Assembly (NCBI GenBank): GCA_944326565.1
Contig: CALVEL010000001.1
Span: 372,001 to 436,000 of the forward strand
DNA from: Candidatus Gastranaerophilales bacterium
GTDB taxonomy: Bacteria; Cyanobacteriota; Vampirovibrionia; Gastranaerophilales; Gastranaerophilaceae
Reading direction: 5' to 3'
Length of the DNA stretch: 64,000 nt
The position numbers and the translations under genes are program-made. The notes below the pieces were generated by a model. The model was given only the letters and a program-made list of their open reading frames with translations. It was not told the DNA's origin and ran no database searches. This document shows, piece by piece, positions 13,389 to 25,011 of this stretch (position 1 is the first letter of the stretch; each line of letters begins with the position of its first letter).

Positions 13389-14381
13389 TTATAATAATAC
13401 GAATAGAAGTAATAATGTTGCAATTGCCATTGCAGGACCAAATGGTAAAATAGATATATCTCCTTCGTTTTTAATTCCTTTAATGATTCTTACACAAGCA
13501 TATATACCTATTACTAATAGAATTATTGAAGCGACTACACAAATCGCAAAGTTTTCTATCATACCATAGTAATTTGCAAGTGAAAATCCAACAGCAGCAA
13601 GTAAAAATAAAATTATAGAAAAAATAGTCTTGTTATCTTTTCTTTCTCTAAGTTTTCTGAAAAATCCAGGTAATACAATTGCAACTTGAATTGCAATGCT
13701 TATAGCTATTGTGTTTAAAACAGCCATCCAGCCGAAAAATGCTCCCAATCCAGCAGCTATAAATGTATCTCCTGTTCCAAAAGCACGTTTTCCTATAATT
13801 AAATTACCTATTCTTGCAAGAATTTCCATAGCAACAACACCAGCAATAAGGCCGAAAATTGATGTAGTAATCGGAAGGTGTAAGAAGTTTTGAGCTTTAA
13901 ATAAAAAATATCCTTTTGTCGCTAATTGTTGATTAACATAAAAGTGAGTTAATACTACATTATAGATTAGACCCATAATAATCAAAAACCAAGCGTGACC
14001 TGCACAAATAACTTTTTCTTTAATATCAGTAATAGACATTACAAGTAATGTACAGCAAGCGATAAAAACAAAAAGAGTATTAAATGTAAAACTGTACTTT
14101 AATAGACATCCAACAAGTAATATTCCAGTTAAAAATTCTACGATTGGATACTGAATACTAATTTTTTCATTACAGTAAGCACATTTGCCTTTTAAAAATA
14201 TATAAGAAAGAATAGGTATATTATGCCAAGGTTTAATTCTTTCTCCACATTTTGGACACTTAGAAGGTGGTAGGACAATAGATTCACCGGTTAAGCCTCT
14301 TAGAGCTACTACATTCAAGAAACTTCCTATGATTGTTCCTAGTGCAAAAGTCAAAAGTAAAATACAAATAAATAGTTCCAT
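13389..14381 (-). CDS. pilD: prepilin peptidase (A24 family, PilD-like)
   Basis: The bifunctional membrane enzyme that cleaves the leader of type IV prepilins and pseudopilins and methylates the new N-terminus. The 330-residue protein has the N-terminal zinc domain with CPKC (42-45) and CAYC (67-70) around WHNIPILSYIFLKGK, then about eight membrane helices. The catalytic aspartates are Asp119 (SITDIKEK) and Asp205 in FGTGDTFIAAGLGAFFGW (the GxGD motif). It is longer than many family members because of a C-terminal membrane extension of about 100 residues. It starts 2 bases after the stop of the SigF-like gene, so the two are one operon. Its likely substrates in this window are the prepilin-like proteins at 22205, 24298, 36091 and 59206. 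Confidence 0.93.
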   Translation of the reverse strand: MELFICILLLTFALGTIIGSFLNVVALRGLTGESIVLPPSKCPKCGERIKPWHNIPILSYIFLKGKCAYCNEKISIQYPIVEFLTGILLVGCLLKYSFTFNTLFVFIACCTLLVMSITDIKEKVICAGHAWFLIIMGLIYNVVLTHFYVNQQLATKGYFLFKAQNFLHLPITTSIFGLIAGVVAMEILARIGNLIIGKRAFGTGDTFIAAGLGAFFGWMAVLNTIAISIAIQVAIVLPGFFRKLRERKDNKTIFSIILFLLAAVGFSLANYYGMIENFAICVVASIILLVIGIYACVRIIKGIKNEGDISILPFGPAMAIATLLLLFVLL

Positions 14382-19670: not shown

Positions 19671-20342
19671 TTAGTACATAACTCCAGAATCAAGAATTTT
19701 TTGTACTTCAGATTTCATAATTTTATGTATTTCATTTATTGGTTTTGTGCCATCTATACTTATGAAATTATACTCAGATTTCATATCATTATATTGCTCG
19801 AGACATTTTTTCTGATAGATTTCAAAGCTTTTATAAAAGTCTGTAGAAAATCCTACATCGCGTCCGCTTTCATAAAAATCTAATCCTGTTGTACCTATAA
19901 TCCTTTTTAAAAGAACATCTACAGGCATATCAAGGTAAAATACCAAATCAGGTTCGGGTGCATATTCATATAAATTTTTCACCCATTCAATATTTTGACC
20001 TCTTACGACATCTCTAGCAAGAGCAGTGTAATAATATCTGTCTAAAAGTACTATAAAACCGGATTTTAAAGCCGGAATAATCGTATTTTCAAGTCTGTCT
20101 GCAAAATCAGCTGCATATAAAAGACTATATGTTGTTGCATTTAACAAATTTCTGTCTTTGGCATCATCAATTACATTTGCAATCAATCTTGAAGTCTTCC
20201 ATTCTGATACCATAACTCCATAAGACTGATCTTCGATTGCTCGTTTCAAAAGTTCCAGCTGAGTTGATTTTCCGCTGCCGTCAGTTCCTTCAATTACAAT
20301 CAGAAGTCCTTCATAATTATGTTTCTTTTTAAATTTTTCCAT
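19671..20342 (-). CDS. thymidylate-kinase-like P-loop kinase, copy 2
   Basis: A 223-residue nucleoside-monophosphate kinase of the thymidylate-kinase superfamily. The P-loop is IEGTDGSGKSTQ (18-28), and the substrate-side DR motif is LLDRYYYTALARDVVRG. In place of the usual TREPGGT after the P-loop strand it has VSEWKTSRLI, as does its neighbour in modified form. It overlaps the upstream copy by one base (TAATG) and is clearly a tandem duplicate. Because the substrate loop differs from canonical Tmk, dTMP specificity is not certain. No other tmk is in the window. Confidence 0.8.
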   Translation of the reverse strand: MEKFKKKHNYEGLLIVIEGTDGSGKSTQLELLKRAIEDQSYGVMVSEWKTSRLIANVIDDAKDRNLLNATTYSLLYAADFADRLENTIIPALKSGFIVLLDRYYYTALARDVVRGQNIEWVKNLYEYAPEPDLVFYLDMPVDVLLKRIIGTTGLDFYESGRDVGFSTDFYKSFEIYQKKCLEQYNDMKSEYNFISIDGTKPINEIHKIMKSEVQKILDSGVMY

Positions 20343-21016
20343 TATATAACAACTCCTTTTGCTTCAAGAACTTTTTTAAGCATTTCTCTTATTTCGACTT
20401 GTTTTTTATGTATTGAATCCATTGCATCAATTTTTACAAGACCAAATTCTTTTACCATTTTTTGGTATTCTTTTATTACACGTGTTTGGAATATCATATA
20501 ACTTTCATAAGGGTCGTTGCTTAATTTTAAATCCATTCCCGCTTCATAGAATTTGGGAGCACGATTTGAGCAAATTCTTTCCATTGAAACTTTTGGGTTG
20601 ATATCAAAATAAATTGCCAAATCAGGTTTTATTGCAAAATCATATACTTTTCTGACCCATTGAGGATCAACTCCTCTTGCTACGTCTCTTGCAAAAGCTG
20701 TATAAGCATATCTGTCTGCAAGTACAATAAAACCGGCTTTTAGTGCTGGATCTATTACTTGTTTAAGTCTGTCAGCGAAATCTACTGCGTGTAGTAAAGA
20801 AAAAGTCCTTGGCGACAGCATATTTTTCTTTTTAGCTAATTTAGTTGTCTGGCTTATTAATTCAGATGAATTCCACTCAGTAAAAATTACATCTTGTCCT
20901 ATAGATTTAAGCCAATCTCTAAGAAGTGCTAATTGAGTTGATTTACCACTGCCATCAATTCCTTCTACACAGATTAGTGTACCTTTCAAATTATGTTTTT
21001 CAGTTAATTTAGACAA
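20342..21016 (-). CDS. thymidylate-kinase-like P-loop kinase, copy 1
   Basis: A 224-residue kinase, first gene of the tandem pair. The P-loop is VEGIDGSGKSTQ (17-28), the DR motif is LADRYAYTAFARDVARGVD, and both proteins share the FADRL segment and the block before it (SLLHAVDFADRL versus SLLYAADFADRL). The TREPGGT position reads FTEWNSSELI. It ends in a TAATG junction with copy 2, so the products are made together and might form a heterodimer (thymidylate kinases are dimers). One copy may be dTMP kinase and the other act on another nucleotide. Confidence 0.8.
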   Translation of the reverse strand: MSKLTEKHNLKGTLICVEGIDGSGKSTQLALLRDWLKSIGQDVIFTEWNSSELISQTTKLAKKKNMLSPRTFSLLHAVDFADRLKQVIDPALKAGFIVLADRYAYTAFARDVARGVDPQWVRKVYDFAIKPDLAIYFDINPKVSMERICSNRAPKFYEAGMDLKLSNDPYESYMIFQTRVIKEYQKMVKEFGLVKIDAMDSIHKKQVEIREMLKKVLEAKGVVI

Positions 21017-21997: not shown

Positions 21998-22026
21998 TTG
22001 TAAAAAGTAAAAAATTAATATATACT
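21998..22026 (+). promoter_or_regulatory. promoter P1 upstream of the poly-G leader (locus A)
   Basis: TTGTAA (21998-22003) and TATACT (22021-22026) are 17 bases apart. The start site would be near 22033, about 30 bases before the ATG of the poly-G leader at 22062. Confidence 0.55.
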
Positions 22027-22061
22027 AATAACGTAAAATTGAAAACCAAAGGAGATGGAGT

Positions 22062-22115
22062 ATGAAAAAGTGCACTATGACTAAGTTTCAGGGGGGGGGG
22101 GGCACCCGAGAATAA
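22062..22115 (+). CDS. 17-codon leader ORF containing a G12 tract (locus A)
   Basis: A ribosome site (GGAGATGGAG) precedes an ATG at 22062. In the given sequence the frame encodes 17 residues, MKKCTMTKFQGGGGTRE, and stops at TAA 22113. The GGGG comes from a run of twelve G at 22091-22102. The leader is strongly similar to that at 24279 and to the broken copy at 28629. If the run held 13 (or 10) G, the ATG would be in frame with the pilin ORF starting at 22205, with no stop between (about 34 further codons). It may be a contingency leader, a true micropeptide, or the remnant of a pilin gene. Confidence 0.5.
   Translation: MKKCTMTKFQGGGGTRE
22091..22102 (+). repeat. poly-G tract, 12 G, locus A
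   Basis: Twelve consecutive G follow TTTCA and precede CACCCGAGAATAAGCTCCTG. Apart from the identical tract at 24308, the longest G runs I noticed elsewhere in this AT-rich window are 6. Such runs mutate in length by slipped-strand mispairing. Confidence 0.95.
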
Positions 22116-22144
22116 GCTCCTGGTTGGTTACAAAAATAAACCGA

Positions 22145-22173
22145 TTGCATGCTGACTATAAAAATGATAAAAT
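22145..22173 (+). promoter_or_regulatory. promoter P2 between the poly-G leader and the pilin ATG (locus A)
   Basis: TTGCAT (22145-22150) and TAAAAT (22168-22173) are 17 bases apart. A transcript from here would start near 22180 and carry the pilin ATG at 22205, bypassing the poly-G leader. The -35 is identical to that of the locus B promoter. Confidence 0.45.
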
Positions 22174-22204
22174 GAATATTATATTAGGTAGCAAAGAGGT
22201 CAGT

Positions 22205-23011
22205 ATGAAAAAAGCATTTACAATGGCTGAAGTATTGATAACATTAGGTGTTATAGGCATCGTTGTCGCAATGACTCTACCGTCATTAATAAATAGAATG
22301 AATGATAAGCAGAATATAGCAAAATGGAAGAAGGAATATTCTGTCCTGAGTAATGCATTTAATATTATTCTTGCTGAGGATATTCCAATATGTATGTATT
22401 ATTCTGCCAATGGTGATTGTACTTATGGTGATAAAGGATATCTTGATTTTTCTGCTGAATTTATGGAAAAGATAAAAAATACCTTACAAGTAGTGAGTTT
22501 TTGTTCTAAACCAGGGAAAGTTGATCGTAATTATGAATGTGATAATTACAATAGTGATTATTGGAAAAAGAATTCAAAATATAAATGGTCTGGTACTGCC
22601 AATATATATAGTCAATATAAAGCACTTGGCGTAAGTAAAATGTCTAATCCAAATTCATATTCACCTTATGGTTTGAATGCGTATAATTTTTATACAATGG
22701 CATATCTTTTGAATGACGGTGCAGCAGTTTATTTTGGTGGGTTGTGGGATGGGCCATGGATAGTTGTAGATGTAAATAATTTTCAAAACGGTCCGAATGA
22801 AGTAGGTCGTGATGTCTTTATCATAAAAGTATATTCTAATTACAGAAAACGAGAACACTGGATGCGTCCAGCAGGAGCTAAAGACACACCTGGGTATAAT
22901 AAAGCAGAATCAGGCAGTTATGGTTGCTCTAGTAAAATCGGACTTCAAACATCTAATACAATTTATGATGCTGCAGGTGCTGGGTGTTCTGCTAAGTATT
23001 TATTGGAATAA
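22205..23011 (+). CDS. type IV prepilin-like / pseudopilin protein (locus A)
   Basis: A 268-residue protein with a class III (prepilin) signal: MKKA, then FTMAEVLITLGVIGIVVAMT, with Glu at +5 of the mature protein and a hydrophobic helix of about 20 residues. The residue before the cleavage site is Ala and not the usual Gly, which prepilin peptidases tolerate less well. The globular part has many Cys and aromatic residues and ends GAGCSAKYLLE, like the protein at 36091. I choose ATG 22205 (AAAGAGGT upstream), although the frame is open back to the G12 tract. It is probably matured by the peptidase encoded at 13389 and assembled into a pilus or pseudopilus. Confidence 0.82.
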   Translation: MKKAFTMAEVLITLGVIGIVVAMTLPSLINRMNDKQNIAKWKKEYSVLSNAFNIILAEDIPICMYYSANGDCTYGDKGYLDFSAEFMEKIKNTLQVVSFCSKPGKVDRNYECDNYNSDYWKKNSKYKWSGTANIYSQYKALGVSKMSNPNSYSPYGLNAYNFYTMAYLLNDGAAVYFGGLWDGPWIVVDVNNFQNGPNEVGRDVFIIKVYSNYRKREHWMRPAGAKDTPGYNKAESGSYGCSSKIGLQTSNTIYDAAGAGCSAKYLLE

Positions 23012-23068: not shown

Positions 23069-23100
23069 AAAGTGCATCAATTTGATGCACTTTAGTTTTT
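23069..23100. terminator. terminator between locus A pilin and ilvC
   Basis: AAAGTGCATCAA and TTGATGCACTTT are perfect complements (23069-23080, 23082-23093), with T-rich sequence on both sides (TTTTT at 23096-23100, A6 before the stem). It can end both the pilin transcript and the convergent ilvC transcript. Confidence 0.75.
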
Positions 23101-24278: not shown

Positions 24279-24332
24279 ATGAAAAAGCACGCTATGAGTG
24301 GATTTACGGGGGGGGGGGGCACCCGAAAATAA
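24279..24332 (+). CDS. 17-codon leader ORF containing a G12 tract (locus B)
   Basis: ACAGGAGGAAAAT is an excellent ribosome site before ATG 24279. With twelve G the frame reads MKKHAMSGFTGGGGTRK and stops at TAA 24330. With eleven (or fourteen) G it reads through GGGAPENNAPVREKEKFLG into FTLAEVLITLG of the pilin, giving one 243-residue prepilin. The given sequence thus appears to be an OFF version of a single gene. The alternative is a real 17-residue peptide, supported only by the equal length of the two G12 leaders. Confidence 0.6.
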   Translation: MKKHAMSGFTGGGGTRK

Positions 24333-25011
24333 CGCTCCTGTAAGAGAAAAAGAAAAATTTTTAGGATTTACTTTAGCTGAAGTATTAATAACATTGGGGA
24401 TTATTGGTATAGTCGCCGCGATGACGATACCAGGTTTAATCAAGAATTATCAGGAAAGACAATTCAAGACAGCGTATAAAAAAGTATATTCAGAAATATC
24501 CCAAGCATTCCAAGAAGCATTGCTAAATCAGGAGTTTAATCGTAATGGCTATAGAGATATGCAAGCTACGACAGAAGAATTTAATATATTAAAATCCAAA
24601 TTCAAAGTAATGCTAGATTGTGGCTCTGAAGACATATACCGTTGCTGGGAAAAAGGTGATACCTTGTGCGGTGGATCATGTTCATCAGGCAATTCCTCGG
24701 ATGGTATTGATATGGAAGATGGTGCACCTAGAGAAAATGATTCGCAATGTTTTATTGATGCTGGTGGGCAAAGTTGGTGTACATATCATAATGATGAAAA
24801 TATATTTTTAGTCGATACAAACGGATTTTCAAATCCGAACAGATTTGGTCGTGATAGATGGATTTTTACATTTGCTGATATAAATAACAGTAGAGCAGAT
24901 TATGCTAAAGATTATAAAAAAGTTATTCCTTATTTGAATCAAGATATATTAACACAAGAAGCTTTTTGCAAACGTCCGCCTTGCTATTATCAATCCTGGC
25001 TTTTGAAGTAA
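24298..25011 (+). CDS. type IV prepilin-like protein, out of frame with its start in this sequence (locus B)
   Basis: The pilin frame is open from a GTG at 24298 (237 codons) but has no ATG before the hydrophobic helix. The only well-placed start, ATG 24279, is one frame away because of the G12 tract at 24308-24319. The protein has FLG then FTLAEVLITLGIIGIVAAMT (Gly at -1, Glu at +5), followed by a globular domain with Cys pairs (LDCGSEDIYRCWEK, TLCGGSCSSG) and the family block VDTNGFSNPNRFGRD. In the joined form the leader would be about 34 residues, long for a prepilin. The peptidase at 13389 is the likely processing enzyme. Confidence 0.78.
   Translation: MDLRGGGAPENNAPVREKEKFLGFTLAEVLITLGIIGIVAAMTIPGLIKNYQERQFKTAYKKVYSEISQAFQEALLNQEFNRNGYRDMQATTEEFNILKSKFKVMLDCGSEDIYRCWEKGDTLCGGSCSSGNSSDGIDMEDGAPRENDSQCFIDAGGQSWCTYHNDENIFLVDTNGFSNPNRFGRDRWIFTFADINNSRADYAKDYKKVIPYLNQDILTQEAFCKRPPCYYQSWLLK
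24308..24319 (+). repeat. poly-G tract, 12 G, locus B
   Basis: Twelve G follow GGATTTAC and precede CACCCGAAAATAACGCTCCTG, nearly the same flanks as at 22091. It sits 10 codons after the ATG. Its length decides whether the ATG is joined to the pilin. Confidence 0.95.

Follow-up and report, generated by a model that had tools for sequence, protein, structure and literature searches.

A tract of 12 guanines ahead of a type IV pilin-like gene, in the 64,000-nucleotide stretch of Candidatus Gastranaerophilales DNA analyzed here (the window), probably serves as a slippage-prone translational ON/OFF switch within a cleavable prepilin leader, as one of about 31 such elements in the genome and with a resting state that is OFF. 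The tract (22091–22102, + strand) lies in a leader open reading frame that, as assembled, comprises 17 codons (22062–22115, + strand), runs from an ATG at 22062 to a TAA at 22113–22115, and reads MKKCTMTKFQGGGGTRE. The leader start is separated from the tract by 29 nt, and CACCCGAGAATAA follows directly on the 3' side of G12. The first-pass annotation had placed the leader ATG, its 17 codons, the G12 tract with the sequence that follows it, and the pilin ATG at 22205, and all of these coordinates are correct to the base. As it also proposed, one added G (G13), or alternatively G10, joins ATG 22062 to the pilin ORF through 34 stop-free codons (22103–22204, + strand), which in that frame read HPRISSWLVTKINRLHADYKNDKMNIILGSKEVS. 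Tract length sets the frame in the manner of a phase-variable homopolymer: at G10 and G13, leader and pilin are joined, and at other lengths the leader frame runs into a stop.

Ahead of the leader, a putative ribosome-binding site, AGGAG, is recognizable from the sequence at 22050–22054 (+ strand), and most leaders in the genus have the same site in front of them. A promoter-like pair 5' of the leader, TTGTAA-17-TATACT (21998–22026, + strand), reaches 9/12, the threshold of our promoter scan, and scores above an inner TTGCAT-17-TAAAAT pair that we describe below. Promoter-like pairs in the whole scanned region are no richer than in shuffled sequences; across the 31 leaders of this genome, the promoter-like score 5' of the leader averages 9.2/12, and that of a control region lying farther 5' averages 7.4. 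From shuffled sequences, 0.04 G9 tracts would be expected per 64 kb, whereas two G12 tracts are present in the window. The other one belongs to a second leader–pilin unit (24279–25011, + strand) with a leader ATG at 24279 and G12 at 24308–24319, in which the pilin frame is reached at G11 or G14. Elsewhere in the window, two tandem thymidylate-kinase-like genes (19671–20342 and 20342–21016, − strand, both matching PF02223) adjoin an HD-domain gene, a tandem pair within a small genome.

The gene that the leader can join (22205–23011, + strand) has its own ATG and matches TIGR02532 with 18.6 bits (cut-off 16.3), while its PF07963 score falls slightly under the cut-off of that model. Cleavage is predicted before the F encoded at 22217, where MKKA is followed by FTMAEVLITLG, such that the N-terminus reads MKKA and then FTMAEVLITLGVIGIVVAMT. 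A short or cleavable leader, a G or A before F-T-x-x-E, and a hydrophobic helix are all present, and on the basis of this N-terminal motif and the TIGR02532 match, the predicted product is type IV pilin-like. Using the pilin protein as a query against the genome contigs, we found no relatives. A terminator-like hairpin lies 3' of the gene (23069–23093, + strand). The window also encodes an A24-family prepilin peptidase (13389–14381, − strand; PF06750 and PF01478), the sole Peptidase_A24 match in the genome, that is predicted to remove the leader. This prediction bears on the earlier suggestion that the leader sets a long versus a short N-terminus. In the long form, about 50 residues would precede the predicted cleavage site, and since the peptidase should remove all residues before FTMAEV, the mature protein is unlikely to be affected by the difference.

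The arrangement in the window is repeated throughout the host genome (G000; 1.87 Mb, 14 contigs, 99.9% complete), where 31 of the 33 tracts of at least eight Gs are found in leaders with a frame joinable to a type IV pilin-like ORF. At L063, a G tract sits in a leader 5' of a divergent pilin-like sequence, and at L062, a G tract is found without a leader. The leaders are short and usually carry a GGAG-type ribosome site, and the joined ORFs bear the prepilin motif FT(L/M)AEVLITLG. In the commonest form, the leader is fused directly to the pilin as MQTMIEIx-GGG-APENKLLVGKKIG followed by FTLAEVLITLG, and no second start intervenes ahead of the pilin. Searching for the DNA pattern of the leader gave matches in six contigs, mostly from Candidatus Gastranaerophilales, and none in viral contigs.

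Tracts of at least eight Gs occur in 13 of the 14 genomes of the genus, and the leader–tract–pilin architecture is common to the genus and to one sister genus within the Gastranaerophilales, the latter sampled by a single genome (G014). The second leader of the window (ATG 24279) lies next to ilvC, and G003, G007, G008, and G012 each have a G12 leader at the equivalent site, in all four cases with one G too many to read into the pilin. The pilin frame is free of stops from tract to motif in 154 of 164 leaders in the genus, amounting to 8,696 codons over all 164, whereas the other two frames across the same joins contain 513 and 850 stops. The frame arithmetic of the first-pass annotation and, among the several ideas it offered, that of a switchable leader gain support from some 31 copies in this genome and over 150 across the genus.

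The longest joins in the genus reach 235 codons. In G003 (L098–L137) and at L047, pilin leaders of up to about 190 codons contain dispersed repeat-like segments inserted in frame (for example, RHSDESQSLSMPVNSI and SELDSESINADRNRLRLGGRSDE) that are reminiscent of Rickettsia palindromic elements; such insertions would be tolerable because the leader would be cut off by the prepilin peptidase. Poly-G is very common elsewhere in the family as well, with up to 176 tracts of at least nine Gs per genome. In more distant genera, only 2 of about 30 sampled G tracts precede a pilin motif; therefore, the link to pilins is established only for the genus and one sister genus, and other gene families may carry poly-G further afield. 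A second type of tract, G9–G11 and mostly preceded by cttttc, is found at seven loci in G014 (L357, L358, L361, L362, L371, L373, and L375), at which the 3' sequence is unlike that of pilin leaders and the pilin motif is absent.

A second feature of these leaders is a pronounced bias in register. At their assembled lengths, the 31 leaders in the window's own genome divide into 23 with one G too many for the pilin frame, 5 in frame, and 3 lacking one G; in the genus, the corresponding numbers are 117, 23, and 13 of 153. Because related loci are not independent, we gave each leader cluster one vote, with the start codons of related leaders set by a simple ribosome-site rule, and 34 of 48 clusters fell in the class that is one G too long (p=2e-7). 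In the common OFF frame, a stop lies within five codons after the tract in 92% of leaders, compared with 11% in the other OFF frame. The modal length tracks the phase of the flanks, being G13, G12, or G11 when lead+f equals 0, 1, or 2 (mod 3), where lead is the number of bases from start codon to tract and f is the number from tract to the first complete codon of the pilin frame. The tract lengths could instead be consensus or assembly errors and therefore uninformative, since long G runs invite errors and many of the leaders are located at the ends of contigs. We regard this as extremely improbable, as errors would be blind to frame, whereas the lengths covary with flank phase even where the boundary base has become a G, and the modal lengths differ between the two genera.

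Free random switching would give a less uniform register than the one seen. In G014, where G10 is the modal length, 19 of 21 leaders lack one G rather than having one too many, and a stop follows one or two codons past the tract. The common feature across both genera, as read from these sequences, is thus a resting length that would end translation at once and lie a single slip away from ON. The direction of the slip is not fixed, which speaks against a programmed frameshift site of the classical kind. We rejected a programmed frameshifting or slippage site for these reasons: the direction is reversed in the sister genus, registers flip between homologs, and no structure is found. A CTCCT motif after the tract, present in 109 of 153 leaders in the genus and missing in 44, raised the possibility that it sequesters the AGGAG ribosome site of the leader. 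We rejected this candidate as well, as the folds are no better than those of shuffles (mean z −0.3) and the motif is missing from those 44 leaders.

The resting register could instead be functional at the RNA level, with some mRNAs or ribosomes slipping on the G run such that pilin is made from all loci at once. Bacterial transcription slippage is known for runs of A or T (PMC1088944). That the mode follows register and not absolute length fits such a mechanism, as do the pilin frames that stay open at loci that are OFF in the DNA. Two of these, L325 and L333 of G002, have interrupted G tracts (GGGGGAGGGGGG and GGGGGAGGGAGG) and are nevertheless still in the OFF register with their pilin frames open, which is hard to explain by a purely DNA-level switch unless the interruptions are recent. 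However, the slip needed is opposite in direction in the sister genus, where leaders are too short and not too long, and also in the window copy; registers flip between close homologs; and no RNA structure is found beside the tract (mean z −0.3). Taken together, we consider expression by RNA-level slippage unlikely.

When pilins at least 75% identical are paired, 8 of the 15 pairs drawn from two genomes and 9 of the 28 drawn from one genome are in different registers, all of them differences between assemblies and copies, with each genome represented by one assembly consensus. Tract length therefore does change between related genomes and copies, as is characteristic of phase-variable homopolymers. 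L044 (ON) and L054 (OFF), for example, differ in state, with pilins 96% identical. The leaders also change independently of the genes they precede, as L050 and L055, whose pilin DNA agrees at 99.8% over 642 nt, carry different leader types; therefore, leaders and pilins recombine as modules, and the pair offers sequence evidence of a recent leader exchange or gene conversion. The same GTG-started G12 leader is found at L033 of G000 and L204 of G011, where the pilin bodies are 96% identical; the ilvC proteins of these two genomes are 87% identical, and a recent transfer of the locus is possible.

The window copy belongs to a subfamily with two potential starts, represented by six copies in G000 and nine in G012. 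The module 3' of the tract in this subfamily consists of TTGCAT-17-TAAAAT-GAATATTATATTAGG, a GAGG site, and then ATGAAAAAAGC. In the window, the promoter-like pair lies within the join at 22145–22173 (+ strand) and the ribosome-binding site, identified from the sequence and the subfamily alignment, at 22196–22199 (+ strand), where the sequence before the pilin start reads AAAGAGGTCAGT-ATG. The inner ATG, ribosome site, and promoter-like pair had been pointed out before, and we find them to be a conserved feature of the subfamily in two species. The pair falls below the 9/12 threshold of the promoter scan because TTGCAT fits the −35 consensus at only three of six positions. Consensus differences between G000 and G012 spare both hexamers as well as the ribosome site and are spread over the codon positions as 4/5/5, and the variable columns of the module join as 9/12/13. 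No preference for third codon positions is seen; therefore, the leader-join peptide is not conserved, and protein-level constraint on the join is rejected as a candidate. Such a pattern is what constraint on regulation, not on coding, would be expected to give. An inner promoter in the window copy is thus plausible from its conservation, although its −35 hexamer is weak.

With such an inner start at hand, the leader of the window copy could be a bystander left by recombination, with transcription beginning at about 22180, translation at 22205, and the G12 leader a relic, as the first-pass annotation allowed. The inner pair, GAGG, and ATG conserved between G000 and G012, set beside a join peptide that is not, favor this reading. 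However, a leader that is cleaved off need not conserve its peptide, and among the 12 subfamily copies with a visible tract, the tract is uninterrupted and the join open in all 12, with 9 sharing the common OFF register of the other leaders. At L031, furthermore, ATA replaces the inner ATG, and thus only the leader start would be usable there. For the subfamily as a whole, these observations disfavor a relic.

The window copy (L039) stands apart from its siblings. Alignment of 12 subfamily copies reveals a 1-nt insertion at 22126–22131 (+ strand; GGTTAC for GGTAA) that is absent from the siblings and moves the ON length from G11/G14 to G10/G13. As a result, the window copy needs one more G to be ON, whereas its siblings need one fewer; at G12, it is OFF as they are, with the same early stop. 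The 5' half of its leader matches that of L034 at 23 of 29 nt, compared with 16 of 29 for its module siblings. Because of this L034-like half and the insertion, L039 looks recombinant from its sequence. The insertion departs from the usual relation between flanks and tract, and the leader there may be drifting. In the subfamily, the inner start and the promoter-like pair and ribosome site ahead of it may bypass the switch, and a bypass is possible for the window copy in particular because of its insertion, which the siblings lack. Overall, we consider it rather unlikely that the window leader is a bystander.

Two potential starts behind a short leader ORF with a variable repeat also recall attenuation, in which the position of the leader stop would govern either the inner start or a terminator further on; Pil1 of Streptococcus gallolyticus operates like this (PMC3894217). 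However, no + strand terminator-like site is found at 22103–22205, between the tract and the inner ATG, leader RNA folds no better than shuffles, and most siblings are direct fusions that lack an inner start. Control of this kind is very unlikely here.

We thus favor the translational switch and envisage the following course of events. The leader promoter and AGGAG site would start translation at 22062, and gain or loss of Gs would place this start in or out of the pilin frame. At G12, ribosomes would stop after 17 codons, and pilin would come only from the inner start, if active; following a slip to G13 or G10, leader ribosomes would read on into the pilin and output would rise. The long prepilin would be cut before FTMAEV, and since the prepilin peptidase would remove the leader, both starts would give the same mature pilin. 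In copies with two starts, the tract therefore probably sets high versus basal output and not a strict on or off state. The benefit would be a varied repertoire of surface pilins. More tentatively, it is possible that resting OFF has been selected across the lineage, with flank phase and tract length co-evolved such that a stop lies within a few codons and ON is one slip away. Tens of pilins would then form a silent but quickly reachable repertoire, a low level of RNA slippage would keep their frames under selection, and a subset including the window copy would retain an inner start for constant basal pilin.

Gastranaerophilales are common, uncultured gut relatives of the cyanobacteria. If our reading is correct, genomes in this group carry about 10–60 poly-G-switched pilin genes each, placing them among the bacteria richest in phase-variable pilins and extending large-scale surface variation to a gut commensal, outside the pathogens usually studied for such loci. 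The shared OFF register of unrelated leaders presents a testable puzzle of how slippage and selection together set contingency loci. In a full-text search of the open-licence literature, we found no description of a poly-G pilin system in Gastranaerophilales.

Several known systems share parts of this design. In Neisseria, antigenic variation of pilE/pilS involves many related pilin copies that exchange segments. Related pilin copies with apparent segment exchange are found here as well (L050/L055), but each comes with a promoter-like sequence, ribosome site, and start of its own, and no single expression locus was found. A variable repeat in a leader ORF 5' of pilus genes is shared with Pil1 of S. 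gallolyticus, in which most cells are low and some are high expressers (PMC3894217); Pil1 uses GCAGA repeats and a terminator, whereas here there is no terminator and most leaders are direct pilin fusions. In pilC1 and pilC2 of Neisseria, homopolymer phase variation occurs (Jonsson 1991, cited in PMC5953494), a G/C tract within the reading frame toggling a type IV pilus gene by frameshift. PilC is an assembly and retraction protein present in one or two copies, whereas dozens of pilin-like genes are found per genome here. Unlike in pilC, moreover, the tract is located in a leader expected to be cut off by prepilin peptidase, a pronounced shared OFF register is apparent, and the window copy has an inner start. 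The poly-G contingency genes of Campylobacter jejuni offer a further parallel, as numerous G tracts of comparable length lie within genes of one AT-rich genome there, held near a modal length of G9–G10 by length-dependent indel biases (PMC8355987). The C. jejuni tracts serve many types of genes, whereas 31 of 33 here serve one pilin-like family with a mobile leader, and in the system described here, unlike in C. jejuni, flank phase matches the modal length to the OFF state.
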